Source: Acinetobacter sp. CS-2
GTDB taxonomy: Bacteria > Pseudomonadota > Gammaproteobacteria > Pseudomonadales > Moraxellaceae
Assembly (NCBI RefSeq): GCF_016599715.1
Contig: NZ_CP067019.1
Location: 186,001-250,000 of the forward strand
Reading direction: 5' to 3'
Length of the DNA: 64,000 nt
Part shown: piece after piece, positions 6,002 to 21,982 of the stretch
Position numbering within the stretch: position 1 is the first letter of the stretch
Layout of the letters: each line of letters starts with the position of its first letter
Made by a program: the position numbers and the translations under genes
Notes under the pieces: model-generated
Told to the model about the DNA's origin: nothing
Databases searched by the model: none
The model's input: the letters and a program-made list of their open reading frames with translations, nothing else

Positions 6002-6013
6002 AATACGGCTTTT

Positions 6014-6041
6014 AAAAAACCCGCAAATTGCGGGTTTTTTT
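6014..6041 (+). terminator. Rho-independent terminator after the SDR gene
   Basis: CCCGCAA...TTGCGGG with an A-run before and a run of T after (6035-6041). Confidence 0.85.
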
Positions 6042-6193
6042 ATGTGCTGAAATGCAGCTTTTCAAATCCTCTCCAAAGTATGCTTTTTTAAGTTTTAACC
6101 CGTCAATTAAAGTGATAGGAGAGACTCAGAAATAATTTGATATCTAAAAATAAGAAATAAAAATAAAAAAACCAGCTGAATTTAAATAAGCAA

Positions 6194-6244
6194 GTGTTGG
6201 AATATCAACACACATATCGCGTTAAAACCAACATTTCTGGTTGG
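6194..6244 (+). promoter_or_regulatory. Two inverted repeats, candidate enhancer sites for a sigma54 activator
   Basis: GTGTTG-N6-CAACAC at 6194-6211 is a perfect inverted repeat. CCAAC-N7-GTTGG at 6228-6244 is a second one. They lie about 45-95 bp upstream of the -24 element at 6288, the usual distance for upstream activator sequences of sigma54 promoters. The core GTTG-N6-CAAC (6196-6209) recurs at 20290-20303 in front of a monooxygenase gene. The likely binding protein is the activator encoded at 16276-17400. The rest of the 341-bp spacer is AT-rich with no gene seen. Confidence 0.55.
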
Positions 6245-6285
6245 GATAATTGTAATAAATTTAATTAAAACAATAACTTAAAATG

Positions 6286-6301
6286 TTGGCATGCTTGTTG
6301 T
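6286..6301 (+). promoter_or_regulatory. Sigma54 (-24/-12) promoter
   Basis: TTGGCATGCTTGTTGT has GG at 6288-6289 and GT at 6300-6301 with exactly 10 bases between, matching YTGGCACG-N4-TTGC except for T at the last position. The start should be near 6312. A strong Shine-Dalgarno (GGGAGGTG, 6310-6317) precedes a four-codon open frame (ATG 6319, TAG 6331-6333) whose stop overlaps the ribosome site of the amidohydrolase gene at 6343. Confidence 0.7.
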
Positions 6302-6342
6302 AATAACAGGGAGGTGTAATGATAAGAAATTAGGTAAATCTC

Positions 6343-7851
6343 ATGACAATTTTAAAAGATTTAAAGGCAAAACAATCGCGTGCTGCTCAAGTACGTTCTC
6401 AACTTGATTATCCAGTGATTGATACGGACATTCATACCAATGCCTACAGTCCTGCACTTGAAGACTATATTGCGCAGTACGGGGGGGCACGTGTGGTGGA
6501 TGTGTTCCGTAGCCATTTAAAAAGTAACGGTTTAAATGCTTTGGCGGCAGAGTGGTACAACGCCAGCCCGGAAGAACGTCAAAACCGTCGTTTGTTCCGC
6601 CCGCCATTTTGGGCACTTCCTTCAGAAAATACCTATGACTTGGCCACGGTTGCCTTACCGGGCTTATTGTATGAGCGTTTAGAAGAACTCGGAACAGACT
6701 ATGCTGTGTTGTATCCAAACCTGGCTTTGTTCCCAATCAATTCATCCAATGACGATTTACGTTTGTCTTTAACCCGTGCGATTAACCATTTCCATGCGGA
6801 CATTTATAAACCCTATGCCGACCGTTTAACCCCAGTGGCTGCGATTCCACTGAATACCCCACAAGAAGGCATTGAAGAGCTTGAATTTGCCCAAAAGCTC
6901 GGTCTAAAAACAGCGTTAATTCCGGGAGCAGTACGTCGTCCAATTCAAGCCGTTGCAGAGAAATATCCTGAAGATAGCGATCTGCGTCGTTATGCTTACT
7001 GGTTGGATTTCTTCGGTATCGACAGTGAATATGACTACGACCCGTTCTGGCAAAAGAGCGTGGATTTGGGCATTAACCTGTCGACCCATTCGGGCAGCCA
7101 AAGCTGGGTGGCACGCAACTCGCCAAGCAACTACATGTTTAACCACATTAACCACTTTGCCGATGCCTCTGAAGCCTTGGCCAAAGCCCTGTTCTTTGGT
7201 GGCGTGACTGAGCGTATTCCACAGCTTCGTATTGCCTTGCTAGAAGCAGGCGCAGCATGGGGTCAAAACGTGTTGACGCATCTGGTTGACCGTTTTGAAA
7301 AACGCGGTAATGAGCATGTGCAACAGTACAACCCTGAACGTCTCAACCGTGAATTGGCAATAGAGCTTTATCGTCAATATGGCCATACCTTGTATCAAGG
7401 TCGCGAACTGAATGAGCAGGAAATCATTGAAAGCTTGTTTGGTGTGGCATCGACTTCACGTTTCCAGGCGCAAAAACCTGAAGAAATCAATGATTTTGCC
7501 TTGGCCAAAATCCAGACCAAACAGGACATCTGGGACCGTTGGGTACCGAATTTCTACTTTGGCAATGAAGCAGACGACCGCACCATCGTGGGTGCATTGA
7601 ATCCCAAAGGTAATCCATTTGGTCAAAAAATTAATGCCCTGTATTCATCCGATTCCGGCCATTGGGATGTGCCTGAATTAACCGAGTCCTTGGCAGAAAC
7701 TTGGGACTTGGTGCAAGAAGGCGCCATTACGGCAGAAGACTTCAAGTCCTTGGTGTTCACCAACCCATACCAGTTCTATACCGCGAACAATCCGGACTTC
7801 TTCAAAGGTACGCAGGTTGAAGCCAAATTAAATAAATCTAGCGCAGCTTAA
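6343..7851 (+). CDS. Amidohydrolase-family metal-dependent hydrolase
   Basis: A 502-residue protein of the amidohydrolase-2 type (TIM barrel, related to decarboxylases such as ACMSD). The first-strand metal motif appears as D27-T-D29-I-H31, and a later STHSG likely gives another metal-binding His. It lacks a signal peptide, so it is cytoplasmic. The reaction cannot be told from sequence: hydrolysis or non-oxidative decarboxylation of an imported compound are both possible. It is the first gene after the sigma54 promoter and is followed by porin and ABC genes, so it probably acts on what they import. Confidence 0.8.
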   Translation: MTILKDLKAKQSRAAQVRSQLDYPVIDTDIHTNAYSPALEDYIAQYGGARVVDVFRSHLKSNGLNALAAEWYNASPEERQNRRLFRPPFWALPSENTYDLATVALPGLLYERLEELGTDYAVLYPNLALFPINSSNDDLRLSLTRAINHFHADIYKPYADRLTPVAAIPLNTPQEGIEELEFAQKLGLKTALIPGAVRRPIQAVAEKYPEDSDLRRYAYWLDFFGIDSEYDYDPFWQKSVDLGINLSTHSGSQSWVARNSPSNYMFNHINHFADASEALAKALFFGGVTERIPQLRIALLEAGAAWGQNVLTHLVDRFEKRGNEHVQQYNPERLNRELAIELYRQYGHTLYQGRELNEQEIIESLFGVASTSRFQAQKPEEINDFALAKIQTKQDIWDRWVPNFYFGNEADDRTIVGALNPKGNPFGQKINALYSSDSGHWDVPELTESLAETWDLVQEGAITAEDFKSLVFTNPYQFYTANNPDFFKGTQVEAKLNKSSAA

Positions 7852-7871
7852 TCCTCATCGTTTCGAGTCGC

Positions 7872-7895
7872 GTCCGCTTACGTCCGTAAGCGGAC
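7872..7895 (+). repeat. Strong inverted repeat between amidohydrolase and porin genes
   Basis: GTCCGCTTAC (7872-7881) and GTAAGCGGAC (7886-7895) form a perfect 10-bp stem with a GTCC loop. A moderate T-rich tract follows (7902-7920). It could be a partial terminator or an mRNA-stabilising hairpin that separates porin expression from the upstream gene. Confidence 0.7.
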
Positions 7896-7937
7896 CTTAG
7901 GGTTTTTATTTTCAATTTTTGATATTTGGGATTTTTT

Positions 7938-9416
7938 GTGGGTAAACAACATTTATTGGCTGTATCAGTCGCTTTGGTTTTACAAGGGTTTTCCCTCACC
8001 GCCCAAGCCAATGATGACACGCAAGCTGAATTACAACAGCTCAAAGCACAAATTGCACAACTGCAAAAACGTTTTGTGCAACTTGAGCAAAAACATACGA
8101 CGCAAACGGTGTCTGAAGACGGCGAGGGCATTGATGCTGAAGATCCAGATGCAGATGTGAATCTTGTACGTGAAGTCAATGCAGACGATATCGATGGCTT
8201 AAAGGGCGATATTGAAAACTTTAAGTATGATGAATCTCGTCGCTACGAGCGGCAAACCGTCAAGTCTACACGTGACACCACCTTGTACGGTACGGTGCAG
8301 GTACGTACCTCTTATCAAGATGAAAGCACCAGCGCAGGCAATCCTGCACCTTCAGGTGATCGCTACTCGACCTTTGATATTCCAACCGCACTGCTTGGAG
8401 TACGAGGCAACTTATTCCGTGATTATAACGAGGGCAAAAACCTCGAGTACCAACTGTCATTTAGCTATTCAAAACAGCCAAGTACAGCGGGCAATAACAG
8501 TAACTTTAACCTGCAAGACGCTTTCTTGCGCTACAACGTATTCTCCACCAATTCAGGCTTAGAAGAGCCACGTTTAAACGTGACTTTAGGTCAGCAGCTC
8601 ATTCCATTTGGTTTGGAAGCACAGTCACCTGAAGATTTACGTCCGACCATTACCCAAGCGATTGCACCGGTGCAATTGGGTCTGACAGCACGTCAAAACG
8701 GGTTGATCGTTCGGGGTGATGTCAAACCATATGTTGACTACGGCGCGAACTACCGTGCACCACTTTTGGAATATGCACTTGGCGTGACCAATGGTAATGG
8801 CATTAACAAAACGGATGACAATGATGGCAAAGACTTCTTGGCACGTGTGGCATATACCTTGCCTGTGGACTATGCCAGCATTTTCCGTGAATTAAAGTTT
8901 GGTGCGTCGTATCTGAAAGGTAAAGCCAATGTCAAAAATGCGGGGGGACTACTCTCTGATAATGCCAAGCGTGACATCTTAGGTTTCGATATTTATTACA
9001 ACCACGCACCGTTTGGCGTGACCTATGAATATATTCAAGCCAGAACAGAACAGGCAACCGCGAGCAACCAGTTGGTGGATACCACTGCTGAAGGGCATAC
9101 CTTCACTGCGTTTTATACTGTCGGTGACCAGTTCTATAACAGTATCAAATCCAACGCCAAATTTGATGACTTCTGGCCGAAGTCGATTCAGGGCTATTAC
9201 CGCTATGACAACTACAACCCGAACAAAGATCAGGACGTGGTCAATGTAGTGGGTAACGGTTTTGGTGAATACACCAGACATTCACTGGGTTTGAACTTCT
9301 TCTTTGCGCAAACCACCAAGTTCCAGCTGGCGCTGAACAATACCCAATATAAACATGAAACTGCGACTCAAAAGGACTTCAACGAAGTCGTTGGTCAATT
9401 CCAATACACCTTCTAA
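7938..9416 (+). CDS. Outer membrane porin (phosphate-selective-porin-like)
   Basis: GTG at 7938 gives a clean signal peptide (MGKQHLLAVSVALVL...LTAQA, about 24 residues); a TTG four codons earlier is the alternative start. After the signal a short coiled coil (AELQQLKAQIAQLQKRF, typical of trimeric porins) leads to a beta-barrel of alternating polar and aromatic strands, ending FQYTF with the terminal Phe used in barrel assembly. At about 492 residues the size suits a 16-18-strand channel. It lies between amidohydrolase and binding-protein genes, so it probably lets the operon's substrate cross the outer membrane. Confidence 0.82.
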   Translation: MGKQHLLAVSVALVLQGFSLTAQANDDTQAELQQLKAQIAQLQKRFVQLEQKHTTQTVSEDGEGIDAEDPDADVNLVREVNADDIDGLKGDIENFKYDESRRYERQTVKSTRDTTLYGTVQVRTSYQDESTSAGNPAPSGDRYSTFDIPTALLGVRGNLFRDYNEGKNLEYQLSFSYSKQPSTAGNNSNFNLQDAFLRYNVFSTNSGLEEPRLNVTLGQQLIPFGLEAQSPEDLRPTITQAIAPVQLGLTARQNGLIVRGDVKPYVDYGANYRAPLLEYALGVTNGNGINKTDDNDGKDFLARVAYTLPVDYASIFRELKFGASYLKGKANVKNAGGLLSDNAKRDILGFDIYYNHAPFGVTYEYIQARTEQATASNQLVDTTAEGHTFTAFYTVGDQFYNSIKSNAKFDDFWPKSIQGYYRYDNYNPNKDQDVVNVVGNGFGEYTRHSLGLNFFFAQTTKFQLALNNTQYKHETATQKDFNEVVGQFQYTF

Positions 9417-9442
9417 TTTTTGTCTTTAGGAATATTGATGTT

Positions 9443-10498
9443 ATGAAATTTCTCTCTAAAAAAATCACAGCAAGTTTACTGGCGCTGTCAGCATTAGGTC
9501 TGAGTCTCAATGTCGTGGCGGCAACGCCAAAAGAAATCCGTATTTCGGTGTCATCGGCAGGTGAGGGTGGGCGTCCTAAAATTGGCGGTGGTTTTATTGC
9601 AACTGCCCATGCACGCGGTGTACTCGAACAAGAATTTAAAAAAGACGGCATTAAAGTGACCTGGCTATTTTTTCCGGGTGCAGGACCTGCAACCAACGAA
9701 GCCTTAGCCAATGGCAAGGTTGACTTTGCAACCCAAGGTGATTTGCCCTCTATCGTGGGTCGTGCATCGGGTTTAAAAACGAAATTGTTATTCGGTACAG
9801 CACGTCTAGGCCCTGTGTATTTTGTGGTGCCGTCGGATTCTTCTGCTAAAAGATTGGCCGACTTAAAGGGCAAGAAAATTGCCAACTTTAAGGGTACCAA
9901 TGGTCAGTTGGTGTTGGCACGTTTATTTAAAAGCCAAAACCTGAATGAAAAAGATTTCCGTGTCATTAACCAAGATACCTATTCATCGCGTACTGCAATC
10001 GCTACAGGAGATATTGATGGCACGATTACCACGCCGTGGAGTTTAGAGGCGCGTGGCGTTGCCAAACGTTTGATCACCTCGAAAGATCCGAAAGTATCAG
10101 CACTTTCCGCGTTCTGGGTATCAGAAGCCTTTGAAAAACAATATCCAGAGGTTGTACAGCGTGTAGTCACCACTCTGGTTAAACAGGCGCACTGGAGCAG
10201 CCAGGAAGCCAACCGTAATGCGCAGTACAAGCTCTGGGCACAAAGTGGTATTCCATATATTGACTATAAAAAAGACTGGGATGGTTGGGATCTGAAAAAA
10301 CGTATCAGCCCACTGATCGATGATTTCCATGTTGCACAGTACACCGATGCGGTCAAACTGTCTAAAGAAGCACGTCTGATTCGCCGTGATGTCGACGTGA
10401 AAACGTGGTACCAACCGAAATATCTCAACAATGCACTCAAAGAACTGAAACTTGAAAACTATTGGCAGCCCTTGAATGCCAATGGCAAGCCAAAGTAA
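9443..10498 (+). CDS. ABC transporter substrate-binding protein (SsuA/TauA-like)
   Basis: A 351-residue periplasmic binding protein. Residues 1-27 are a signal peptide with cleavage expected after VVAA. The mature part has the aliphatic sulfonate / nitrate / taurine family signature: FFPGAGPATNEALANGKVDFATQGDLPSIVGRASG (split here: FFPGAGPATNEAL then GKVDFATQGDLP). The family mainly binds sulfonates, sulfate esters or nitrogen compounds. The ATG follows AGGA at 9427-9430. It is one of two binding proteins in the operon, and the closest in type to SsuA. Confidence 0.85.
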   Translation: MKFLSKKITASLLALSALGLSLNVVAATPKEIRISVSSAGEGGRPKIGGGFIATAHARGVLEQEFKKDGIKVTWLFFPGAGPATNEALANGKVDFATQGDLPSIVGRASGLKTKLLFGTARLGPVYFVVPSDSSAKRLADLKGKKIANFKGTNGQLVLARLFKSQNLNEKDFRVINQDTYSSRTAIATGDIDGTITTPWSLEARGVAKRLITSKDPKVSALSAFWVSEAFEKQYPEVVQRVVTTLVKQAHWSSQEANRNAQYKLWAQSGIPYIDYKKDWDGWDLKKRISPLIDDFHVAQYTDAVKLSKEARLIRRDVDVKTWYQPKYLNNALKELKLENYWQPLNANGKPK

Positions 10499-10508
10499 GG
10501 ACGCTCTG

Positions 10509-11760
10509 ATGTCATCGGTTGAATCAAATCTGGTCTCTACGCCACTGTCGATGAAGTTCATGAGTAGCTTCATTCTACTGAGCGTATTGGCAGGCTTAGG
10601 GATGGGCGTATTTCGCGTCCTGACTTCCCTGTACGGGGTAGAGCTCAACGCGTCTGGTCTACAGCTCGGACTAATTTCTGCAGCACAAAGTATTGGTATT
10701 TTGCTGATGGCTTTGCCGATTGGCGTATTGGTGAAACGCCTCGGTTCTTTGAAGGTATTTACCATCGGGAGCCTAGTGGGCGCTAGCCTGTTCATGGTCG
10801 GTTCACTGTTTCATAACGCATGGGCATTAGTCCTGATTACGGCATTGGTCAGCGCCAATGCGTTTTGTTTCGATCAACACTGTTTTCTTAACGCATCTGC
10901 GTCGTTTAGGGGCATCCAAAGCCGGGTGGTTTCGTGGGTCACATATGATGGGCTTTTTCTTGATTGCACCATCACTGGGGGTGTTTTTTATCTCAACTGT
11001 GGGTTACCAAAAATCATTTTGGTGTGTGGCGGTACTTTTTTTGATTGCACTGATGCTGGCACCGATTTGCTTCGAGCGTAAAACTCAGGATGAACGCAAT
11101 GCCCAACCTAAATTTAAGTTCAAAGAAGTGCTTGAACCCTTACAGCTGATCAAGAGTCATCAACCCTTACGCACTGTCTGTTTACTGGAAATTTTAATCA
11201 GCATCGCGACCAATACCTTTGGTTTCTTCATAGTGGTGATTGCGATTCAAAACTTTGCTTTTGCTGAGCATTCAGCGGTAATGCTTTTGACGGTACAGGG
11301 CATTGTCTTTGTCGGCTCATTATTTGGTTTGGGCGGTTTAGCGGAATGGTTGGGTTATCAGAAGTTTTATCTGATTGGATTGAGCTGTGTCAGTGGAGCA
11401 TTGTTTGCCTTGGCATTACTCAAAGAAGCGATGGGACTTTGGCCTGCGAGTGCGCTATTGGGACTCGGACTTGGCGTACTGCATATTGCAAATTTCATGT
11501 CCTTTGCCAAAGTGGGTGAAGCGACGGAGATGACCAAGGTATCGCCAATTTTAGCCTTGGTTGGCCCTACAGGCGGTCTCTTAGGCGGGGTGATCGGCAT
11601 GGTGTTTGGTTCAAGTGTAGGTCTGCAATGGTTATTCTTACCGATTGCAATCGCCTTTGCGGGTATGACCATTTACATCTATTTCAGTCAACGATTTTTA
11701 ACTTTTATTCAAAGTGATACATCACATACAACACAGCAACTCGAGGGGTCAAAATCATGA
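10509..11760 (+). pseudogene. MFS transporter gene broken by a frameshift
   Basis: The ATG at 10509 (ribosome site TAAGGA at 10496-10501) begins a major facilitator protein with several hydrophobic helices. The frame is lost near 10857-10860 and continues in frame +1 from the ATG at 10858 to the TGA at 11760. Inserting AT to read AAT ATG CGT restores one frame (SAN then MRFVSINTVFLTH) of about 417 residues, the normal MFS length. The downstream half retains good coding character, so this is a recent lesion, a base-call error or a phase-variable site. The stop overlaps the next permease start (ATGA), so an interrupted frame could weaken coupling. Confidence 0.8.
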
Positions 11761-12599
11761 GTATCAATCAGATTGAACACCGTAGTTTTGCATTGCAAAA
11801 CTTACCTAAGCTCCTTTTAGCAGTCAAACAACTGCTTAAAAATGGAGGGCTGCTGTGTTGTGGTTTTGCTCTTCCTCTGGCGGTCTTGGCACTTTGGTAT
11901 GTGGCGACTGAACAGCAGTGGCTTCCAGAGCAGATCTTGCCTGCACCGCAATTGGTGTGGACCACCACCGTAGAACTTTGGCAAATGGGTGATTTGCAAA
12001 GCAACTTTTGGGTCAGTGCTCAACGCATTTTTTGGAGTGTCAGTTTAGGTGCAAGTGTTGGCCTTGTACTCGGTATATGGTTTGCATTGTCTGCAAAGGC
12101 TCGCCATTTGGTGTATCCCAGTATTCAACTGTTGGCGCAGTTTCCAATTTTGGCGTGGATTCCACTGCTGATGATTTTCTTAGGCATTGATGAGGCACTC
12201 AAAATCGTGGCGATCTCACTGGCTGTGATTGCACCCGTCTTAATCGCAACGTTTAAAGGGATTGAACAAGTTCCTCAGCGTCTCATTGAAGTGGCAAAAG
12301 TCTATCAATTTAGCAAATGGCGAACTTTAACGCAGGTCATTGCACCTGCAAGTGCTCCCGCCATTATCAGTGGTTTACGCCAAGGTGTGATGCAGGCCTG
12401 GTTGGCTTTGGTCTTTGTTGAACTGCTTGCGAGCAGTGAAGGTATTGGCTTTTTGATGGTCTGGGGCCGTCAGTTGATGCAGCTGGATATTGTATTTATG
12501 GGCATCATTTTTATTGGTTTAACGGGTTATGTCCTCGACAGCATTCTGGCCGTGATTGAACGTATCGCTCGTTTTTATGCAACACGCGTGAGGGCTTAA
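11757..12599 (+). CDS. ABC transporter permease (SsuC/TauC type), first
   Basis: A 280-residue inner-membrane permease of the binding-protein-dependent transport family with about six hydrophobic segments. The coupling motif is near residues 180-200 (VAKVYQFSKWRTLTQVIAPASAP), the EAA loop that touches the ATPase. It overlaps the MFS stop by 4 bp and is 3 bp from the next permease, so the two are translated together and may form a heterodimeric channel. Confidence 0.9.
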   Translation: MSINQIEHRSFALQNLPKLLLAVKQLLKNGGLLCCGFALPLAVLALWYVATEQQWLPEQILPAPQLVWTTTVELWQMGDLQSNFWVSAQRIFWSVSLGASVGLVLGIWFALSAKARHLVYPSIQLLAQFPILAWIPLLMIFLGIDEALKIVAISLAVIAPVLIATFKGIEQVPQRLIEVAKVYQFSKWRTLTQVIAPASAPAIISGLRQGVMQAWLALVFVELLASSEGIGFLMVWGRQLMQLDIVFMGIIFIGLTGYVLDSILAVIERIARFYATRVRA

Positions 12600-12602
12600 C
12601 AG

Positions 12603-13433
12603 ATGGCTGAACTCATTTTAGAAGAACATAAATCAAGCTCGGTCGAGACCACAAGACCTAAGAACAACAGGTTTTGGCGACCGAACAGCTTGCACGTACA
12701 GGCCTTGATATTACCTGTTGCCTTTTTAGTGCTGTGGAGCATTGCCTCGTATTTCGACTGGGTCAATCCAAAACTGATTCCATCGCCATGGGATGTGGGG
12801 GTGACAGCGGTAGAGACGCTGAGCCAGGCACAATTCTGGCAAGGTGTAGCAGCCAGTTTAAGCCGTAACTTTTCTGGCTATGCCATAGGGGCGAGTTTAG
12901 GTGTGGCTTTTGGTGTATTGCTCGGCACATCGCATTTCGCACAGTGGTTTTTAGCACCGAGTTTCCATGTTCTGCGTCAAGTGTCGTTATTTGCATGGTT
13001 ACCGTTAATTTCTACCTTTTTAGGCTACGGCAATTTTGCCAAGTTGTTATTTATCGGTTTGTCGGTGTTCTACCCAGTGGCATTACATAGCTTAGAGGGT
13101 GTACGTAATATTTCAGATAAATACCGTGAAGTGGCACAGGTCTATCAATTTCCCAAAAGTTATACCTACCGTAAATTGATTTTCCCGGGTGCAAGTCCAC
13201 AGATCTTTGTTGGTCTACAGCTGGGCTTGATTTTTGCGTGGTTGGCGACCATTGGTTCGGAGTTTTTATTGGCCAACTATGGCGTTGGACTGGGCAATCT
13301 GGTGATTCGTGGTCGTGAACAATTTAACGTGCCCCTGATTTTACTTGGCATGTTGATAATTGGCGCCGTCGGATTGGTGCTCAATCGCATATTACAACAC
13401 ATCGAAAAACGTGTGCTGGTATGGCAGAAATAG
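12603..13433 (+). CDS. ABC transporter permease (SsuC/TauC type), second
   Basis: A 276-residue permease similar in fold to its neighbour. The EAA loop reads EVAQVYQFPKSYTYRKLIFP, a close match to the partner's loop, which supports joint use of one ATPase. The charged N-terminus (about 30 residues) precedes the first membrane helix. It overlaps the lipoprotein ORF region slightly if the earlier start of that gene is used; the preferred lipoprotein start at 13445 leaves an 11-bp gap. Confidence 0.9.
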   Translation: MAELILEEHKSSSVETTRPKNNRFWRPNSLHVQALILPVAFLVLWSIASYFDWVNPKLIPSPWDVGVTAVETLSQAQFWQGVAASLSRNFSGYAIGASLGVAFGVLLGTSHFAQWFLAPSFHVLRQVSLFAWLPLISTFLGYGNFAKLLFIGLSVFYPVALHSLEGVRNISDKYREVAQVYQFPKSYTYRKLIFPGASPQIFVGLQLGLIFAWLATIGSEFLLANYGVGLGNLVIRGREQFNVPLILLGMLIIGAVGLVLNRILQHIEKRVLVWQK

Positions 13434-13444
13434 GAGAACAGAAG

Positions 13445-14476: not shown

Positions 14477-14478
14477 CA

Positions 14479-15309
14479 ATGACTATTGCCCTTAAAATGG
14501 ACCATGTCCGTAAAGAATTTCCGGCCAAAACCACAGGCAAAGAGCCGGCTGCACCATTTGTCGCAGTGGAAAATGTCACGCTGGATATTCAGCAAGGTGA
14601 ATTTGTCTCGATTGTGGGGCCAAGTGGCTGCGGTAAATCGACCTTGTTAGATTTGATCGCGGGGCTGACTCGTCCAAGCTCAGGACAGATTTTGCTGAGT
14701 GGTAAAGAAATTACCAAGCCAGGTTTGGACCGTGGCATTGTGTTCCAGCAATATGCCCTCTATCCCTGGCTGACGGCTCTAGAAAATATTGAATTTGGTC
14801 TGGAAGCCAAAGGCGTAGACAAGAAGACTCGCCGTGAAAAATCGAAATATTACTTAGAATTGGTCGGGTTATCTGGTTTTGAAAACCATTATCCCAACGA
14901 GCTTTCAGGCGGGATGAAACAGCGTGTAGCAATTGCACGAAGTCTGGCTTATGAACCTGAAATTTTATTGATGGATGAGCCTTTTGCCGCACTGGATGCA
15001 CAGACGCGAGAAACCCTACAAGAGGAACTTCTTAATATTTGGCGTAGCTCGAATGCCACCATCATTTTTATTACCCACAGTATCGATGAAGCGATTTACT
15101 TGAGCCAACGTGTCGCGATCATGACCTCACGTCCTGGGCGAATTAAAGAGGTGATCGAGATTCCGCAAAGCTTGCGCCTGCAAAATGCAGACGTCCGTTC
15201 AACCGCTGAATATGGACAATTGCGTCATCGCATTTGGTCACAGCTGAGTGAGGAAGTGATTAAGGCACAGGCACTAGAAAAATCGAAACAACTCAAGCAA
15301 AGCGCTTAA
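14479..15309 (+). CDS. ABC transporter ATP-binding protein (SsuB/TauB type)
   Basis: A 276-residue ATPase with Walker A GPSGCGKST (47-55), Q-loop in IVFQQYALYPW, signature LSGGMKQR (142-149), Walker B ILLMDEP (162-168) and an H-loop His in FITHSIDEA. The SsuB/TauB/NrtD-type motif LYPWLTALENIEFGL is present. It energises import by the adjacent permeases. It starts 2 bp after the lipoprotein gene and is followed by the third permease 27 bp later. Confidence 0.93.
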   Translation: MTIALKMDHVRKEFPAKTTGKEPAAPFVAVENVTLDIQQGEFVSIVGPSGCGKSTLLDLIAGLTRPSSGQILLSGKEITKPGLDRGIVFQQYALYPWLTALENIEFGLEAKGVDKKTRREKSKYYLELVGLSGFENHYPNELSGGMKQRVAIARSLAYEPEILLMDEPFAALDAQTRETLQEELLNIWRSSNATIIFITHSIDEAIYLSQRVAIMTSRPGRIKEVIEIPQSLRLQNADVRSTAEYGQLRHRIWSQLSEEVIKAQALEKSKQLKQSA

Positions 15310-15336
15310 ACAAATATAAGAAAGAGGAATAACATC

Positions 15337-16173
15337 ATGGCATCTGCAAAAAATCAGGCATTGGCCTATCCCAACACGGGCTTTGCTACAAAAAAAGCCA
15401 ATCTTCAACTGGGTTGGTTAAGTTCAGGCTTCAAACGTTCAATTGCAATTGTATTGTTCTTTGCACTTTGGGAAATCCTGCCACGCATTGGTGTGGTGAG
15501 TGCGGCATTTCTACCGCCATTAAGTCAAGTATTCCAAACAGGGTGGGAGCTCTATCAATCGGGTCAACTCAGCCGCCACCTAGCCGTATCATTGCAACGT
15601 TCCGCGATAGGCTTTAGCCTCGCGATTCTATTGGCCATTCCTTTAGGTTTGGTGATCGGCTGGTATAAACTGGTGGCAGAAACCTTAAATCCACTATTAG
15701 AGCTGTTCCGAAACACAACTGCACTCGCCCTCATGCCGGTATTTATTCTATTTTTAGGGATTGGTGAACTCTCTAAAGTGAGTTTGTTGGTCTATGCCTG
15801 CACCTGGCCGATTCTATTGAACACCATTTCAGGTGTGCAAAATGTCGATCCATTACTCATTAAATCTGCACGCACCATGGGTTTACCCCCTCATCAACTG
15901 TTCAGAAAAGTCATTTTGCCAGCGGCAGTTCCGACCATTTTTGTGGGCATCCGTTTGGCAGGTGCAATCTCAATTTTAGCGTTGGTGGCTGTTGAAATGT
16001 TCGGTTCGAAAGCAGGCTTGGGCTACTTGATTATCTATTCCCAATATAGCTTTGAAATTCCACAAATGTTTGTTGGAATTTTAATTATGACGGTACTTGG
16101 ACTTACATTTAACTATGGATTATTGGCCGTTGAAAAACATTTTACAAAATGGAAGAAAAATCCAGTCGAATAA
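15337..16173 (+). CDS. ABC transporter permease (SsuC/TauC type), third
   Basis: A 278-residue permease with six predicted membrane segments and an EAA loop (ARTMGLPPHQLFRKVILPAA) that differs from the loops of the two permeases upstream, suggesting it belongs to a separate importer, probably as a homodimer with the ATPase at 14479. It has GAGGAA as ribosome site. It is the last gene of the operon and is followed by a terminator. Confidence 0.9.
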   Translation: MASAKNQALAYPNTGFATKKANLQLGWLSSGFKRSIAIVLFFALWEILPRIGVVSAAFLPPLSQVFQTGWELYQSGQLSRHLAVSLQRSAIGFSLAILLAIPLGLVIGWYKLVAETLNPLLELFRNTTALALMPVFILFLGIGELSKVSLLVYACTWPILLNTISGVQNVDPLLIKSARTMGLPPHQLFRKVILPAAVPTIFVGIRLAGAISILALVAVEMFGSKAGLGYLIIYSQYSFEIPQMFVGILIMTVLGLTFNYGLLAVEKHFTKWKKNPVE

Positions 16174-16189
16174 AATCCTTAAAATAAAG

Positions 16190-16215
16190 ACACCCAGTTT
16201 AAAATGGGTGTTTTT
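16190..16215 (+). terminator. Terminator of the transport operon
   Basis: ACACCCA (16190-16196) pairs with TGGGTGT (16205-16211), followed by T5. Confidence 0.8.
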
Positions 16216-16275
16216 ATTTCTGATTCAAACAAATAAAATAATAACTTTAAACCAATATAATAAAATTCATTAAAT

Positions 16276-17400
16276 TTAAATCAACCCATATTTTAATAAA
16301 CGCGTGCGAATGACATTACGGGTCACGCCTAATAATTTTGCAGTATGTACCTGGTTGTACTGGCAGTACTCATAGGCACTGCGAATAAATTTTTCTTCAA
16401 TCAGCTCATTGATATTGGTCTGCTTAAACTGTTCCGAAGACTGAAAAATACTTTGAAATGTCTGTTCCAAAAGTTGTCCTGCATCCTGAAGATCCTTAAT
16501 CGTTCCATTCACCGCAGAAATTGAAGCAAAGCTAAAAGGTTCAGCTTTCTGGGCAGCCGACTGAATACTGGAAAACGTAATATCTTCCGGTTCAATCACG
16601 CCATTTTTACTGACTAAAACGGCATGGTGAATGGTGTTTTCCAGCTCGCGGATATTGCCGGGCCAGGGGTGCAAACTCAGTTTCTTAAGCGCCAGTTGGC
16701 TGAGGCGCAATGGGGTCGCATGCGGGTCGGTCTGGTAGACCTGAATAAAGTGTTTGGTTAGCGGCAGAATGTCATCGCGACGCTCTGAAAGCCTTGGAAT
16801 TTTGAGTAAGGCCACATGCAGGCGATAGAATAAATCCTCCCTGAAACGTCCGTCCTGCACGGCTTTTTCCAGATCGACATTGGTCGCGGCAATAATGCGC
16901 ACATTGATCGGAATCGGCTTGAGTGAACCGATGCGCACAATCTCGCGTTCCTGTAACACCCGTAATAATTTGACCTGCATGGACAGCGATAAATCGCCAA
17001 TTTCATCCAGAAACAGGGTGCCATTATGCGCCGCCTCAAACCAGCCCACACGGGTATTAATGGCACCGGTAAAAGCGCCTTTTTCGTGTCCAAAAAGTTC
17101 ACTTTCGACTAATGATTCGGTGAAAGCGCCACAGTTCACCGCCACAAACGGGCCTTTGGCACGATGGCTGAGCTGATGAATCTGCCGGGCGACCAGTTCT
17201 TTGCCCGTACCGGTGTCGCCAATAATCAACGCATTGGCTTCACTTGGCGCAATCTGTTCAATACGGGCAAGCAGCGCCTGTGATAAAGGATCTTCAAATA
17301 CCGTCGCCGTTGCACGCTTATGCTTCAGGGCAGAGGGTACATTGGGGTGGGTTAAAATAGACATGAGATTCTTATACTTGTTGAAAATGTTAATCATCAT
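16276..17400 (-). CDS. Sigma54-dependent activator without a receiver domain (SfnR-like)
   Basis: A 374-residue enhancer-binding protein. After a short N-terminus comes the AAA+ domain: Walker A GDTGTGKE (61-68), sigma54 contact loop GAFTGA (108-113), Walker B LFLDEIGD (129-136). A Fis-type helix-turn-helix closes the protein ([17 protein letters not shown]). With no N-terminal sensory domain it is expected to be active whenever made. The same layout is seen in SfnR, which activates sulfone use in pseudomonads. Start alternatives are 17400 and 17364; neither has a clear ribosome site. It is convergent to the transport operon and likely drives the promoter at 6286. Confidence 0.88.
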
Positions 17401-17593
17401 GAAATATTTAAAATGGAATGATAAATAATATATCGGTATTTGATTATCGCTTTCAGATATAAATTAAAGCTGGGATTCTTTATCTGTTTAAAAGATAAAA
17501 AAAATAGGGATAACTAAAGGATAAATCAAGATAAAGCAAATCAATAATCTGTTTTATATTAGAGATCTCTAAATAACAAAAGGCAGAATTAAA

Positions 17594-17809
17594 ATGGCAA
17601 TTACTTCAGTAAATGTACGTAACCAGTTTAAAGGCATTATTCAAGAAGTATTAGAAGGTGACGTTGTTTCAGAAATAAATGTGGAAACCAAAGCCGGTCT
17701 GTTTACTTCAATTATCAGTACCCGTTCAGTCAAAGACCTAGACCTTAAAGTCGGTTCTGAAGTTGTGGTGTTGATCAAATCGACGGAAGTGTCCCTGGCG
17801 AAGCTTTAA
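17594..17809 (+). CDS. Molbindin-like TOBE-domain protein (Mop)
   Basis: A 71-residue protein made of one Mop/TOBE domain: SVNVRNQFKGIIQEVLEGDV near the start, a central beta segment, and VGSEVVVLIKSTEVSLAKL at the end. Free-standing molbindins form hexamers that bind molybdate or tungstate, and TOBE domains also serve as regulatory tails of ABC ATPases. It is 37 bp upstream of an ABC ATPase that lacks such a tail, so it could store an oxyanion or regulate transport. It is divergent from the sigma54 activator. Confidence 0.85.
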   Translation: MAITSVNVRNQFKGIIQEVLEGDVVSEINVETKAGLFTSIISTRSVKDLDLKVGSEVVVLIKSTEVSLAKL

Positions 17810-17846
17810 TTCGCCAGTGCCTCAAGCTTTACAGGAGAATTGAGAG

Positions 17847-18674
17847 ATGACACAGCAAGCAACAGGCCATGTATCTATTCAGCAGCTCAGCAAAACCTAT
17901 CCGACACAAAACAATGACGCTTTAACTGTGCTGGACGATATTAATTTAGACATCCAGCCGGGTGAATTTATCAGTATTGTCGGCAGCAGTGGCTGCGGCA
18001 AGTCCACACTGTTACGCTTATTGGTAGGACTGGAAAATAGCTATCAAGGCCAGATCCAGGTGGATGGCAAAAAGATTTTTGGCACCAGTTTACAGCGCGG
18101 GATCGTGTTTCAGGACCACCGTCTTTTTCCCTGGTTAAGCGTGCGTGAAAATGTGCGTATTGCACTGCATCAGAGTAAGCTGACACGGGCTGAAGAAGAC
18201 AAACTGATTGATGAACATCTGCAATTGGTCAATCTGACCAGTTTTGCCAATGCCTATCCATCCCAGCTTTCAGGCGGCATGAACCAGCGTGTGGCGATTG
18301 CCCGCAGTTTGGTCAATCGTCCGGAAATTTTATTTCTGGATGAGCCTTTTGGCGCACTGGATGCCTTAACCCGTCAGAACCTGCAAGACGAATTACAGCG
18401 GATTTGGCAGGCAGAAAAAATCACTATGGTGATTGTGACCCATGACGTTGAAGAAGCAGTATTTTTAGGGGATCGTGTGGTGGTGATGCAGCCGCATCCG
18501 GGTCGGATTAAACGTATTGTTGATATCCCGGTTGCCCATCCGCGTAAACGTGAAGATGTACGTTTGCACAATATTAAAAATGACATTTTGACGGATTTTA
18601 GCGATCCGTTAAAAGACCAGTTACACCGTAATAAACCGGCAGCGAAGTTTTCAGATTATCAATTTGCCTGGTAA
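17847..18674 (+). CDS. ABC transporter ATP-binding protein (SsuB-like), no adjacent permease
   Basis: A 275-residue ATPase with Walker A GSSGCGKST (46-54), signature LSGGMNQR, Walker B ILFLDEP and H-loop VTHDVEEA. It belongs to the sulfonate / nitrate / taurine group, like the ATPase at 14479, but differs in many residues. No permease or binding protein sits next to it. The simplest view is that it powers the permease pair at 11757/12603, which lacks its own ATPase. It is co-oriented with mop and probably co-transcribed. Confidence 0.92.
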   Translation: MTQQATGHVSIQQLSKTYPTQNNDALTVLDDINLDIQPGEFISIVGSSGCGKSTLLRLLVGLENSYQGQIQVDGKKIFGTSLQRGIVFQDHRLFPWLSVRENVRIALHQSKLTRAEEDKLIDEHLQLVNLTSFANAYPSQLSGGMNQRVAIARSLVNRPEILFLDEPFGALDALTRQNLQDELQRIWQAEKITMVIVTHDVEEAVFLGDRVVVMQPHPGRIKRIVDIPVAHPRKREDVRLHNIKNDILTDFSDPLKDQLHRNKPAAKFSDYQFAW

Positions 18675-18699
18675 TGCTATGTCCTGTTTTATCCAAAAG

Positions 18700-18720
18700 C
18701 CTGCGTAAAGTAGGTTTTTT
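18700..18720 (+). terminator. Terminator after the second ATPase gene
   Basis: CCTGC-GTAAA-GTAGG hairpin (with one G-T pair) followed by T6. Confidence 0.6.
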
Positions 18721-18751
18721 AATGTCTGCTTAAAATAGCCAGAGATAAAAA

Positions 18752-18771
18752 ATCCCTCACGAATGAGGGAT
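18752..18771 (-). terminator. Terminator of the first monooxygenase gene
   Basis: ATCCCTCA-CGAA-TGAGGGAT; on the minus strand a run of T follows the stem. Confidence 0.8.
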
Positions 18772-18788
18772 ATTCAATTGCTTTTCAA

Positions 18789-20150
18789 TCAAGATGCTTT
18801 GACTTGTTGACCTGCCAGCACATACTGGTTTTCTGGACGTTTCAAACCTAAATTTTCGCGTAAGGTTTTGCCTTCATATTCGGTCCGGAACAGGCCACGG
18901 CGTTGCAGTTCCGGCACAATAAATTCCACAAAGTCATTTAAGCCGGCTGGGGTAGTCGGCGGTAAAATGTTAAAGCCATCCGCTGCTTCATTTTCAAACC
19001 AGTTCTGTAGCTGATCGACCACCTGTTCCGGTGTACCCACCAGCGTCCAGTGCCCACGTGCCGAGGCAATATATTCATACAGCTGGCGAATACTGAAATT
19101 GTGCTTACGCGCAATATCAATCATCATCTGCTGGCGGCTGGAGAAATTAATATCGGCATCTTCAAGTTTAGGGAAGGGGGCATCCAGGTCATATTTCTCC
19201 AGGTTAATTCCACCGGATAAACCTGACAGTAAACTTAAGCCAACTTTGGGATGAATCAGGCTGTTTAATAACTGGTATTTTTCTTGTGCTTCCTGTTCAG
19301 TTTTCGCAACAAAAATGGATACGCCCGGCATGATTTTCAAGTCATCGGCATGACGGCCATATTTCAACAGACGGCTTTTTACATCGCGGTAAAATTCCTG
19401 TGCATCGCTCAGACTTTGCTGCGCGGTGAAAATCACTTCGGCATATTTACCTGCCAGTTCACGGCCATCTTCCGACTGACCTGCCTGTACAATCACCGGG
19501 TAACCTTGTGGTGGACGAGAGACATTTAAGGCGCCATCAACTTTAAAGTATTTTCCTTGATGTTTGGGTTCGTGGAATTTGCTGACATCAAAAAATTGGC
19601 CGCTTTCCTTATTGTAAAGGAATGCATCATCCTCCCAGGAATCCCAGAGTTTTTGTGTCACTTCAATGAATTCATCAGCACGTTCATAGCGTGTTTTCGG
19701 ATCAGGATGCTTTTCCAGTCCGAAGTTACGCGCGGTATCAGCTGAAGCTGTGGTTACGACATTCCAGGCAGCCCGACCTTTGGAAATATGATCCAGCGAG
19801 GCATATTTACGCGCTAAAATGTAGGGATCTTCATAAGTGGTCGATGCGGTGGCAATAAAACCGATATTTTGGGTCACTGCTGAAAGGGCTGCAAATAAGG
19901 TCACCGGTTCAAAACCGACCGCCTTGTCGCCTAAACCCCGTTGGCCTTCTTTTGCATTACCCCAACTGACCGATAAACCATCGGCAAGGAAATAGGCGTC
20001 AAATAAGCCTTTTTCTGCTGTTCGTGCCAGTTCAATTGCATAATCAATATTTAAATGATCTTGCGGACGCGATTCAGGATGACGCCAGCCGGCAGCATGT
20101 TGCGATGTTGTGGGAATAAAGGCACCGAGTTTAATTTGACGCTTAGACAT
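18789..20150 (-). CDS. Flavin-dependent monooxygenase, NtaA/SnaA/DszA family (copy 1)
   Basis: A 453-residue FMNH2-dependent monooxygenase of the bacterial-luciferase-like class. Family features are the N-terminal KLGAFIPTTSQHAAGWRHP, STTYEDPYILARKYASLDH and SKGRAAWNVVTTAS. Relatives oxidise nitrilotriacetate, dibenzothiophene sulfone, pristinamycin and other compounds, and need a separate flavin reductase, which is not in this window. It has its own likely sigma54-type promoter and upstream repeat, and a terminator. It is closely similar along its whole length to the gene at 20451. Confidence 0.93.
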   Translation of the reverse strand: MSKRQIKLGAFIPTTSQHAAGWRHPESRPQDHLNIDYAIELARTAEKGLFDAYFLADGLSVSWGNAKEGQRGLGDKAVGFEPVTLFAALSAVTQNIGFIATASTTYEDPYILARKYASLDHISKGRAAWNVVTTASADTARNFGLEKHPDPKTRYERADEFIEVTQKLWDSWEDDAFLYNKESGQFFDVSKFHEPKHQGKYFKVDGALNVSRPPQGYPVIVQAGQSEDGRELAGKYAEVIFTAQQSLSDAQEFYRDVKSRLLKYGRHADDLKIMPGVSIFVAKTEQEAQEKYQLLNSLIHPKVGLSLLSGLSGGINLEKYDLDAPFPKLEDADINFSSRQQMMIDIARKHNFSIRQLYEYIASARGHWTLVGTPEQVVDQLQNWFENEAADGFNILPPTTPAGLNDFVEFIVPELQRRGLFRTEYEGKTLRENLGLKRPENQYVLAGQQVKAS

Positions 20151-20191
20151 TGTTCTATCCTATGAAGTGTATTTTTCTCAATAGTGTCTAT

Positions 20192-20207
20192 TTCAAGATG
20201 CATGCCA
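20192..20207 (-). promoter_or_regulatory. Sigma54-like promoter for monooxygenase copy 1
   Basis: On the minus strand TGGCATGCATCTTGAA runs from 20207 to 20192: GG, 10 bases, then GA where GC is expected. It shares TGGCATG and TTG with the promoter at 6286 and lies about 45 bp before the start codon. The GA deviation lowers confidence. Confidence 0.45.
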
Positions 20208-20289
20208 TTTTAAAAATATAATTAAAACAATAATATAAAATACATAATATTTTTATGTGTTTAATGTTCAGCAGTAAAAAAGTTGCTTT

Positions 20290-20303
20290 GTTGCAAATGC
20301 AAC
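20290..20303. promoter_or_regulatory. Inverted repeat GTTG-N6-CAAC, candidate activator site
   Basis: GTTGCAAATGCAAC has the same GTTG-N6-CAAC form as 6196-6209 and its centre is about 91 bp upstream of the -24 element (86 bp in the other case). The remainder of the 300-bp spacer 20151-20450 is AT-rich and holds only this site, the promoter and the next gene's terminator. Confidence 0.5.
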
Positions 20304-20417
20304 AGTAGAAAAAATGCAGTACTTATATGAAATAAGGTCGATCTTCAAAAAAGAATACTTTGGGGCAAAGTAGTGATGAGAAAGATTAAAATGAGGTGAA
20401 TTTCAAAATACATAAAA

Positions 20418-20435
20418 AATGCCCCGAAGGGCATT
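20418..20435 (-). terminator. Terminator of monooxygenase copy 2
   Basis: AATGCCC-CGAA-GGGCATT; the minus-strand transcript reads into a T-run. Confidence 0.85.
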
Positions 20436-20450
20436 TGGGTAGTTCTTGAA

Positions 20451-21818
20451 TTAAGAGGCCTGCGCTTGTTTTTGCGCCAGTACATACTGATTTTCCGGAC
20501 GTTTCAGTCCCAAGTTTTCACGAAGGGTGCTACCTTCATATTCAGTACGGAACAGGCCACGGCGCTGCAGTTCTGGCACAATCAGGTTGACAAAATCATT
20601 TAAACCGGCAGGCGTGCTTGGTGGCAGAATATTAAAGCCATCTGCAGCTTCATTTTCAAACCATTCTTGTAGTTGGTTCACAATCTGCTCAGGAGTACCC
20701 ACCAGCGTCCAGTGGCCACGTGCAGAGGCTACATATTCATACAGTTGGCGGATGGTAAAGTTATGCTTGCGGGCAATATCAATCATCATCTGCTGGCGAC
20801 TGCCAAAATTGATCAAGCTTTCATCCAGTTCAGGGAAAGGCTCATCGATGTCATATTGTTCCAGATCGATTCCGCCGGCCAAACCGGAAAGCAGACCCAG
20901 ACCGACTTGTGGATGAATAAGACTGTTTAACAGATCGTATTTTTCCTGTGCTTCTTCTGCCGTTTTTGCCACAAAAATCGAAACACCCGGCATGATTTTC
21001 AGGTCATCCGGATGACGGCCATATTTAGCTAAACGACCTTTCACATCACGGTAAAATTCCTGTGCATCGGCTAAATTCTGCTGTGCAGTAAAAATCACTT
21101 CGGCATATTTTCCAGCCAGCTCACGGCCATCTTCCGACTGACCTGCCTGTACAATCACCGGATAGCCCTGTGGCGGGCGCGGTACGTTTAATGCTCCTTG
21201 CACTTCAAAATATTTGCCCTTGTGCTGAGGTTCATGAAATTTTTCTGGCTGGAAAAACTGTCCAGAGACTTTGTCATATACAAAGGCATCATCTTCCCAG
21301 GAATCCCAGAGTTTCTGTGCAACCTCAATAAATTCATGTGCACGTGCATAGCGGCTTTTTGCATCTGGATGTTCGGACAGGCCAAAATTGCGCGCGACTT
21401 GTTTAGAGGCTGTGGTGACTACATTCCATGCCGCACGTCCTTTGGAAATATGATCCAGTGAGGCGTATTTGCGTGCCAGCGTATATGGGTGCTCATAGGT
21501 GGTCGATGCAGTAGCGACAAAACCAATATTTTTCGTCACTGCAGACAGGGCAGCGAATAGGGTGACTGGTTCAAAGCCAGTATCTTTATCGCCCAGACCC
21601 CAGCCTTTGCTGGTGGCGGAACCCCAGTCGCCGCGTACAGCTAAAGTGTCCGCCAAAAAGTAGGCATCAAATAAACCACGTTCTGCCGTTTTGACCAGCT
21701 CAATGGCATAGTCAATATTTAAATGATTCTGCGGACGTGAGTCCGGATGACGCCAGCCGGCAGCATGCTGAGAAGTGGTTGGAATAAAAGCACCAAGACG
21801 GATTTTACGTTCAGCCAT
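20451..21818 (-). CDS. Flavin-dependent monooxygenase, NtaA/SnaA/DszA family (copy 2)
   Basis: A 455-residue paralogue of the preceding gene, colinear over its whole length and by eye identical at roughly four of five residues. The clearest differences are an insertion near residues 60-75 (RGDWGSATSKGWG against SWGNAKEGQRG), close to the active-site side in this fold, and the C-terminus. Tandem duplication followed by change in substrate range is the likely history. The terminator after it and the separate promoter of copy 1 suggest the two are expressed independently. Confidence 0.93.
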   Translation of the reverse strand: MAERKIRLGAFIPTTSQHAAGWRHPDSRPQNHLNIDYAIELVKTAERGLFDAYFLADTLAVRGDWGSATSKGWGLGDKDTGFEPVTLFAALSAVTKNIGFVATASTTYEHPYTLARKYASLDHISKGRAAWNVVTTASKQVARNFGLSEHPDAKSRYARAHEFIEVAQKLWDSWEDDAFVYDKVSGQFFQPEKFHEPQHKGKYFEVQGALNVPRPPQGYPVIVQAGQSEDGRELAGKYAEVIFTAQQNLADAQEFYRDVKGRLAKYGRHPDDLKIMPGVSIFVAKTAEEAQEKYDLLNSLIHPQVGLGLLSGLAGGIDLEQYDIDEPFPELDESLINFGSRQQMMIDIARKHNFTIRQLYEYVASARGHWTLVGTPEQIVNQLQEWFENEAADGFNILPPSTPAGLNDFVNLIVPELQRRGLFRTEYEGSTLRENLGLKRPENQYVLAQKQAQAS

Positions 21819-21919
21819 GAGAAAAACCTTGTGTTTTTTATGTTGTCAGCTGGTTATAACAAGGAATTTTCAGGCTTAAAAATACGATAAAATTAAATCC
21901 ATATAAAAAATATGGATTA

Positions 21920-21936
21920 AGCAGGAAAAACGCCAA
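21920..21936 (-). promoter_or_regulatory. Possible sigma54 promoter for monooxygenase copy 2
   Basis: On the minus strand TTGGCGTTTTTCCTGCT has GG (21934-21933) and GC (21922-21921) separated by exactly 10 bases. It lies about 100 bp before the start codon. No GTTG-N6-CAAC repeat is visible upstream, so the case is weaker. Confidence 0.4.
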
Positions 21937-21982
21937 TCACAAGTTTTTTGCTTGGATTTATTTCGCTGTTAAAGGCTGAATA

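Follow-up and report, generated by a model that had tools for sequence, protein, structure and literature searches.

Much of the sulfur in soil is organic, and the way in which bacteria choose among its sources is only partly known. A stretch of 64,000 nucleotides from Acinetobacter sp. CS-2 (assembly GCF_016599715.1, contig NZ_CP067019.1, positions 186,001 to 250,000; hereafter the window, whose coordinates we use) carries an island of about 16 kb, in a genome of 3.57 Mb, that had been predicted to be an organosulfur scavenging system under a dedicated sigma54 regulon. The island extends over 6002..21982, with no strand of its own, from the end of an SDR gene at 6001 to the stop side of a convergent MATE gene at 21983. 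Every gene named in the original prediction was located in this block from open reading frames (ORFs) and Pfam/TIGR profiles. Do these genes form a single system, does it serve sulfur, and what controls it? From sequence comparisons we consider it likely that the island is an Acinetobacter organosulfur-scavenging system under its own SfnR-type activator.

The activator gene (16276..17400, minus strand) encodes an AAA+ sigma54 domain (PF00158, residues 36-198) and a Fis-type helix-turn-helix (HTH_8, residues 332-371), with no Pfam match ahead of them, which agrees with the earlier description of an activator that lacks an N-terminal sensor domain. The genome of CS-2 encodes one RpoN, three strong sigma54 activators and four weak AAA-type matches (23-27 bits); the two other strong activators are 39% and 47% (partial) identical to the island protein and align with it only from residues 138 and 128. 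Relatives were viewed in four of the 149 matching records, three of the four being annotated. The island protein is 57% identical over 360 aa to a Pseudomonas aeruginosa activator beside msuE, ssuD and an acyl-CoA dehydrogenase gene, and 55% identical to a second one that flanks the same three genes (for P. aeruginosa see PMC8234197). It is 53% identical to a Burkholderia pyrrocinia activator beside msuE-sfnG-sfnB and 51% identical to one in B. glumae that lies about 6 kb from msuE-sfnG, with transposases between. The association of these relatives with msuE, ssuD/msuD or sfnG supports the proposal of organosulfur scavenging, as do the TauD, MsuE and SfnB-like proteins encoded in some related loci, and we read the regulon as SfnR-type and as one of sulfur starvation.

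Related loci provide a test of the control regions. SBP2, one of two solute-binding proteins (SBPs) of the island, has matches in 19 of 119 sampled Acinetobacter genomes, that of CS-2 counted, and a scan of genome contigs with the same protein gave one further relative, Acinetobacter sp. HR7. The 20 loci that were mapped (the window, 18 sampled genomes and HR7) comprise nine that resemble the window, with SBP1 and SBP2 61-90% identical (class A), and 11 others (class B; eight of sub-type B1 and three of B2), 10 of which have an additional SBP. Loci L114 and L115 are outside this set and took no part in the comparison.

The sigma54-like promoter and the repeat that had been noted ahead of the operon are both present. 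The predicted -24/-12 promoter of the transport operon (TTGGCATGCTTGTTGTA; 6286..6302, plus strand) is preceded by a palindrome (TGTTGGAATATCAACA; 6195..6210, plus strand), a predicted SfnR-type box for the activator, 75 nt ahead of the -24 element and upstream of the amidohydrolase gene, amdH. What had been missed is a second predicted sigma54 promoter (20192..20208, minus strand), before the monooxygenase gene at 18789..20150 (LLM2), with the same candidate activator site (20289..20304, minus strand) 80 nt ahead of its -24 element. The shared palindrome, TGTTGN6CAACA, stands at a fixed distance from each of the two promoters. With a sigma54 score weighted by the consensus, the background P is 0.013 for the amdH site and 0.034 for the LLM2 site. 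That these are chance sigma54 sites was considered and set aside; a single match is at chance level, and only conservation in relatives counters the objection.

This conservation takes the following form. All five amdH genes whose start is available have a sigma54 site 39-41 nt upstream, and in the eight B1 loci one lies 177-191 nt ahead of the porin gene. Monooxygenase genes have such a site at 38-50 nt, as a rule in a single copy of the gene at each locus but in two at L039, and P among the weaker sites reaches 0.07. Monooxygenase copies without a site are LLM1 of the window (best score P 0.087) and of HR7, and those of L040 at 1593, L041 at 122 and 3258 and L044 at 1626. No outstanding site precedes the TOBE or activator genes, apart from weak ones in L047 (TOBE, P 0.017) and L053 (activator, P 0.011). 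With its pattern taken from the window, the palindrome was scored in 33 hand-picked promoters, one of them too short, with monooxygenase copies that have no sigma54 site left out; it occurs with at most one mismatch in 24 of the 32 non-window promoters scored and with at most two in 30, although the loci are related and a pooled P is not a true probability. Four mismatches in L039 are an artefact of a 380-nt cut, and the alignment shows an intact palindrome there. The distance from palindrome to -24 element is 75 nt for each of the five scored amdH promoters (74-75 nt including the L038 porin promoter), 63-64 nt at B1 porin genes, and 80-82 or 49 nt at monooxygenase promoters. The last two values fit those of the P. 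aeruginosa msuE promoter (TTGGTACGGCCCTTGCT), where a perfect palindrome stands at 82 nt and another copy, with two mismatches, at 51 nt. In the genome of CS-2 the palindrome occurs at four places (one for a reversed control pattern), two of which are at the island's sigma54 promoters; the others fall in a frame of at least 540 codons and in one of 124 codons, with no TTGGCAYN5TTG site within 100 nt of either. Of the proposed dedicated regulon, then, the two promoters with their boxes are supported, whereas LLM1, the TOBE-ATPase 2 pair and the activator gene are not covered by them.

Several observations weigh against this interpretation. Sigma54 matches with at most one mismatch are by themselves at chance level in the window (15 against 14.0 expected), and a one-mismatch palindrome and a weak sigma54 site happen to pair inside LLM2, at 18805. 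In the three B2 promoters the palindrome is poor, with two mismatches at 41, 90 and 72 nt (P 0.05-0.10), and that of L040 LLM2 has three mismatches. Other block-bearing genomes contain 4-29 palindromes, so that the motif alone is insufficient to define the regulon there. Two Burkholderia msuE promoters, on plasmids, have sigma54 sites and no palindrome at the proper distance, and the box is in its proper place in one of the three msuE promoters examined. The msuE and sfnG genes of CS-2 were considered as regulon members and rejected; its msuE has neither palindrome nor sigma54 site upstream, and the set of SfnR-type targets therefore differs in this genome. Finally, SBP1 and SBP2 both score below the SsuA subfamily cut-off, and the MFS carrier gene is broken in the window.

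The enzymes bear on the choice between sulfur and nitrogen. Two DszA/NtaA-type monooxygenases had been announced, and LLM2 (18789..20150, minus strand) and LLM1 (20451..21818, minus strand) are indeed flavin monooxygenases of the NtaA/DmoA family, which exceed the TIGR03860 cut-off of 279.7 with 584 and 583 bits. In a nitrogen-scavenging scheme the substrate of these NtaA-type enzymes would be an aminopolycarboxylate-like compound, which they oxidise, with the sigma54 activator responding to nitrogen limitation. The family name fits such a scheme, as does the presence of nitrilotriacetate monooxygenase (1.7e-97, not far behind the best match) and EDTA monooxygenase among the solved relatives; the best score of ATPase 2, moreover, is to the nitrate family ntrCD, where it stays below the cut-off. 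However, the nearest relatives of both enzymes in the PDB are YtnJ/MoxC (E 1.6e-111 and 5.3e-109), followed by DszA, the relatives of the activator sit with msuE/sfnG, and the box and its spacing are as at P. aeruginosa msuE. Sulfur is favoured over nitrogen because TauD, MsuE, SfnB-like and ssu genes, among them SsuF, are neighbours in related loci, where an aliphatic-sulfonate SBP and cysTW are also found, and a nitrogen function appears very improbable to us.

The same structural relatives raise an alternative within sulfur metabolism. YtnJ is part of an S-alkyl-cysteine-type operon. The monooxygenases might act like Bacillus YtnJ/MoxC, their best solved relatives, on an imported N-acetylated S-alkyl cysteine, from which the amidohydrolase would remove the acyl group; the island would then acquire sulfur without using sulfonates. 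Against this, the SBPs are nearest to SsuA types (SBP2 also to TauA), TauD recurs in sister loci, and the product of amdH (6343..7851, plus strand) is an amidohydrolase-2 enzyme, assigned from PF04909, its relatives and its invariant residues, and not a member of the deacetylase family of the YtnJ operon. We judge S-alkyl-cysteine salvage unlikely. Residues D29, H31, H249, H268, H271, E301 and D437 of the amidohydrolase are invariant in seven orthologues and some of them may bind metal; its only sequence match in the PDB at E 0.01 is PtmU3 (6.8e-7). Against the SsuD profile of the alkanesulfonate system (TIGR03565, cut-off 518) the monooxygenases score 57 and 55 bits, and neither dszB nor dszC was recognised in the block. 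The only MsuE over the cut-off in the genome of CS-2 is encoded far from the block (C1:3111827), and SfnG and SsuD are also encoded in this genome.

Between amdH and the porin gene is a hairpin (7872..7895, plus strand) with a T-rich stretch downstream (z -1.7 for the whole 101-nt stretch; a similar hairpin in L056 has z -1.9). The transport genes follow on the plus strand: an outer-membrane porin-like protein (7926..9416, the ORF as listed, start codon uncertain) that has no Pfam or PDB match, the SsuA-like SBP1 (9443..10498), an MFS carrier (10476..11760), permease 1 (11757..12599), permease 2 (12603..13433), SBP2 (13421..14476, with a lipobox-like signal read by eye), ATPase 1 (14479..15309) and permease 3 (15337..16173). 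Beyond the activator gene, also on the plus strand, are the TOBE protein (17594..17809) and ATPase 2 (17847..18674). An identification of SBP1 as a DszB-like desulfinase was rejected (DszB 8e-8, against 1e-50 for SsuA; by eye, SBP1 has a signal peptide). An in-frame stop flagged in the class B SBP3 is at the C-terminus in the three loci read. The MFS carrier is present as predicted, but a frameshift near 10853, also overlooked in the original prediction, splits the window copy into two frames. The gene is by eye 8 nt shorter there than in HR7, and for this reason the frameshift is probably a real lesion and not a one-base reading error. The frame is intact (415-431 aa) in 18 of the 19 other loci, the exception being L046 (196 aa), and the carrier may be dispensable.

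How are these parts paired? The gene order in relatives suggests two ABC importers. In a Variovorax cluster with the order amdH-SBP1-perm1-perm2-ATPase-TauD the ATPase is 54% identical to ATPase 2 and 45% to ATPase 1. Together with the gene set of a related arrangement, called architecture C below, this cluster indicates that SBP1, permease 1 and permease 2 work with the distal ATPase 2. A unit of SBP2, ATPase 1 and permease 3 in this order, separate from the other genes, is found on plasmids of Bradyrhizobium and Pseudonocardia, where TauD and LLM genes are close by, and also on a replicon of Paraburkholderia. The TOBE protein is 62% identical to one encoded after ssuE-SBP-ssuD-ssuC-SBP-ATPase on a Comamonadaceae plasmid. 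Pseudomonad ssu loci carry SsuF, a molybdopterin-binding protein (PMC8079746). The "molbindin" is, by this comparison, SsuF-like, and with the extra ATPase it is assigned to the first ABC system. The molbindin had been counted as part of an unfamiliar combination, but an SsuF-like protein is a known ssu partner.

If the island is one system its genes should travel together, and here the evidence is mixed. The genes for the porin, SBP1, permeases 1 and 2, ATPase 1, permease 3 and the activator are all present in 20 of 20 loci, and an SBP gene lies between permease 2 and ATPase 1 in 19 (L055 is the exception). For 19 of the 20 the DNA fetched also contains TOBE-ATPase 2; the remaining genome (L053 and L105) has the pair about 10 kb before the porin gene. 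By comparison amdH occurs in six of nine class A loci (in L042 the contig ends within the gene) and is absent from every class B stretch, and there are one to three monooxygenase copies per locus. By the condition set in the original prediction, that free splitting of homologous blocks would refute a single system, the transport core keeps its activator, but the amidohydrolase, the monooxygenases and the SsuF/ATPase 2 segment each come and go on their own. Other ORFs were listed for seven of the 11 class B loci, and seven proteins from three of these were scanned with profiles; they include a TauD dioxygenase, an aldo-keto reductase, a nitroreductase and a Crp-like regulator and, in L053 only, an MsuE over the cut-off and an SfnB-like oxidoreductase below it. 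A wider search, made with the porin alone at a threshold of E 1e-40, gave no match among 292 further genomes from the sample of the order, which include at least one more Acinetobacter.

The chromosomal site is informative as well. The MATE gene is present in 114 of 119 genomes. Both flanks are visible in seven of nine class A loci (in L041 MATE came from a separate search), one is visible in L042 and none in L038, whose contig ends there; in the 11 class B loci MATE is on a different contig or more than 700 kb distant. Among 18 TOBE-less genomes picked by hand, SDR and MATE are adjacent in 14, with gaps of 54-336 nt; the remaining sites hold one monooxygenase gene in L142 and one, plus further unassigned sequence, in L135, and monooxygenase fragments in the other two. 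The site is empty in both class B genomes sampled (L148 and L149, SDR-MATE gaps 81 and 342 nt). Of the 119 genomes, 30 encode TOBE: the 19 block carriers and 11 others, all of which were inspected. Nine of these 11 have architecture C at the SDR-MATE site, SDR-TauD-Crp-TOBE-porin-SBP1-perm1-perm2-ATPase 2-(LLM)-MATE, with a seemingly shortened Crp in G012. It shares with the island the series from TOBE-porin through ATPase 2 and differs in having TauD and a Crp-like regulator in place of the sigma54 activator and no match to SBP2, ATPase 1, permease 3 or the MFS carrier. Four architecture C loci were scanned and contained no sigma54 site scoring at least 13.1 with a palindrome of zero or one mismatch. 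The DNA fetched from G059 has SDR-TauD-Crp-TOBE but neither a porin gene nor transport genes, and G074 has TOBE-ATPase 2-LLM, with a decayed sigma54 activator as two fragments (L103 9593-10120) and the transport core absent.

A comparison of the window with G037 in 200-nt windows adds to this picture. The two DNAs agree to 96-98% within amdH and to 94-99% across 16400-18600, a segment that runs from the activator to ATPase 2 and drops at either edge. From 8200 to about 16170, porin to permease 3, the identity is only 57-84%. In a neighbouring stretch of 3 kb, 2.2 kb match G037 at 98% and 0.8 kb at 90%. By protein sequence, HR7 shares 76-94% identity with the island in these core genes and only 75% in the activator. 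One lineage has therefore exchanged its transport core as a unit. The block as a whole is, on this evidence, an interchangeable insert at one chromosomal site, a place where alternative sulfur cassettes replace each other.

Such mobility could also mean that there is no single system, and that independent modules share a tolerant insertion site by chance. The scattered amdH, the variable number of monooxygenase copies, the nine genomes with TOBE-porin-SBP1-perm1-perm2-ATPase 2 and no sigma54 half, and the core that diverges from G037 between conserved flanks are what would be expected of such modules. Two separate promoters with the same box at near-fixed spacing are not, nor is the constant association of porin, SBP1, permeases 1 and 2, ATPase 1, permease 3 and activator, which holds in the 11 class B loci away from MATE. 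We therefore think it improbable that the modules are independent.

If the island is one organosulfur-scavenging system, it might operate as follows. CysB is a regulator of such activators, and a shortage of sulfate or cysteine would raise the level of the activator, probably through CysB. By binding the palindromes that precede the two sigma54 promoters by 75 and 80 nt, the activator would switch on LLM2 and the transport operon amdH-porin-SBP1-MFS-permeases-SBP2-ATPase-permease. An organosulfur compound would enter through the porin and be imported by two ABC systems, SBP1/permease 1/permease 2 with ATPase 2 and the SsuF-like TOBE protein, and SBP2/permease 3/ATPase 1. LLM2, perhaps with LLM1, would cleave the C-S bond and release sulfite, using reduced flavin presumably supplied by the MsuE encoded elsewhere, and the amidohydrolase may trim the substrate or the product. 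At this locus a sulfur activator would thereby be connected with defined DNA boxes, a pair of promoters and a pair of ABC importers, and since the genus has a tractable laboratory strain, substrate and regulation are directly testable.

How much of this is new? Like the SfnR / msuEDC-sfnG system for sulfones and methanesulfonate in Pseudomonas, the island has a sensor-less sigma54 activator of the same family, the palindrome and spacing of P. aeruginosa msuE, and two-component flavin monooxygenases for organic sulfur. It differs in that its boxes lie ahead of a transport operon and of an NtaA/DmoA-type monooxygenase, in that the host's own msuE has neither box nor sigma54 site, and in the addition of an amidohydrolase, a porin and an MFS carrier. 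With the alkanesulfonate operon ssuEADCBF, whose ssuF was reportedly first studied in P. putida, it shares an SsuA-like SBP, binding-protein-dependent permeases, an ATPase and an SsuF-like TOBE protein; unlike that operon it has no recognised SsuD or SsuE, and it has two ABC systems and a sigma54 promoter. A separate ssu operon of CS-2 comprises two SBPs, SsuD, a permease and an ATPase. Replicons of Variovorax (CP063167) and Pseudanabaena (AP017563) encode amdH products 55-56% identical to that of the island, in the context SBP-permease-permease-ATPase-TauD or near LLM, MFS, an aliphatic-sulfonate SBP, TauD and cysTW; they differ in gene order, and the parts viewed have no annotated sigma54 activator. 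A. baylyi ADP1 assimilates dimethyl sulfide by means of MsuE-driven monooxygenases induced without sulfate, and the parts of that report covered here do not describe the block (PMC13352529). No description of the block or of a swappable build at one chromosomal site was found in titles and abstract starts of the open-licence literature. The parts are known; the arrangement and the behaviour of the site appear to be a new variation.

A second layer of control is conceivable in some loci. Polycysteine leader peptides are found in mycobacteria. In all eight B1 loci (L045-L052) the gap between the sigma54 promoter and the porin gene, for example at about 3470-3502 of L047, contains a short ORF with the residues LRCCM and a Shine-Dalgarno-like sequence, possibly a cysteine-sensing leader peptide. 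Cys-rich ORFs with no recognised ribosome site occur in L038, L039 and L041; all these ORFs were picked partly for their Cys content. No Cys-Cys leader-type ORF was seen before amdH in the window. The leaders of L046-L048 fold no better than shuffled sequences, and an attenuator therefore stays a suggestion. Tentatively, and with less confidence than doubt, we propose that the SDR-MATE site hosts whole sulfur cassettes together with their regulators, SfnR-type or Crp-like, exchanged by recombination in the flanks, and that cassettes lacking amdH add Cys-Cys leader-peptide attenuation, which would give two layers of sulfur control.

Some further features were noted. A conserved AT-rich element (ATCTAAAAATAAGAAATAAAAA) lies upstream of the palindrome, at about 6142-6164 of the window, and also in L040, L045, L046 and L048; it could be a CysB site. 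Conserved elements are present between the divergent activator and TOBE genes (17401-17593) in 10 aligned loci. In G014, a perfect palindrome stands 83 nt before a sigma54 site (L105, about 2430-2550), with ORFs downstream that by eye resemble an acyl-CoA ligase and a Liv-type ABC transporter; this pair is possibly an extra member of the regulon. No integrase-like ORF was found among the ORFs of the window's block, and transposase-like ORFs were seen by eye near a class B locus (L045 2774-3640) and near an architecture C locus (L106 10550-11375). The G+C content of the island, 44.8%, differs little from that of its flanks, 42.7 and 43.9%. Farther along the window, the segment 40000-42227 is 91-98% identical in DNA in seven of the eight other Acinetobacter genomes searched.

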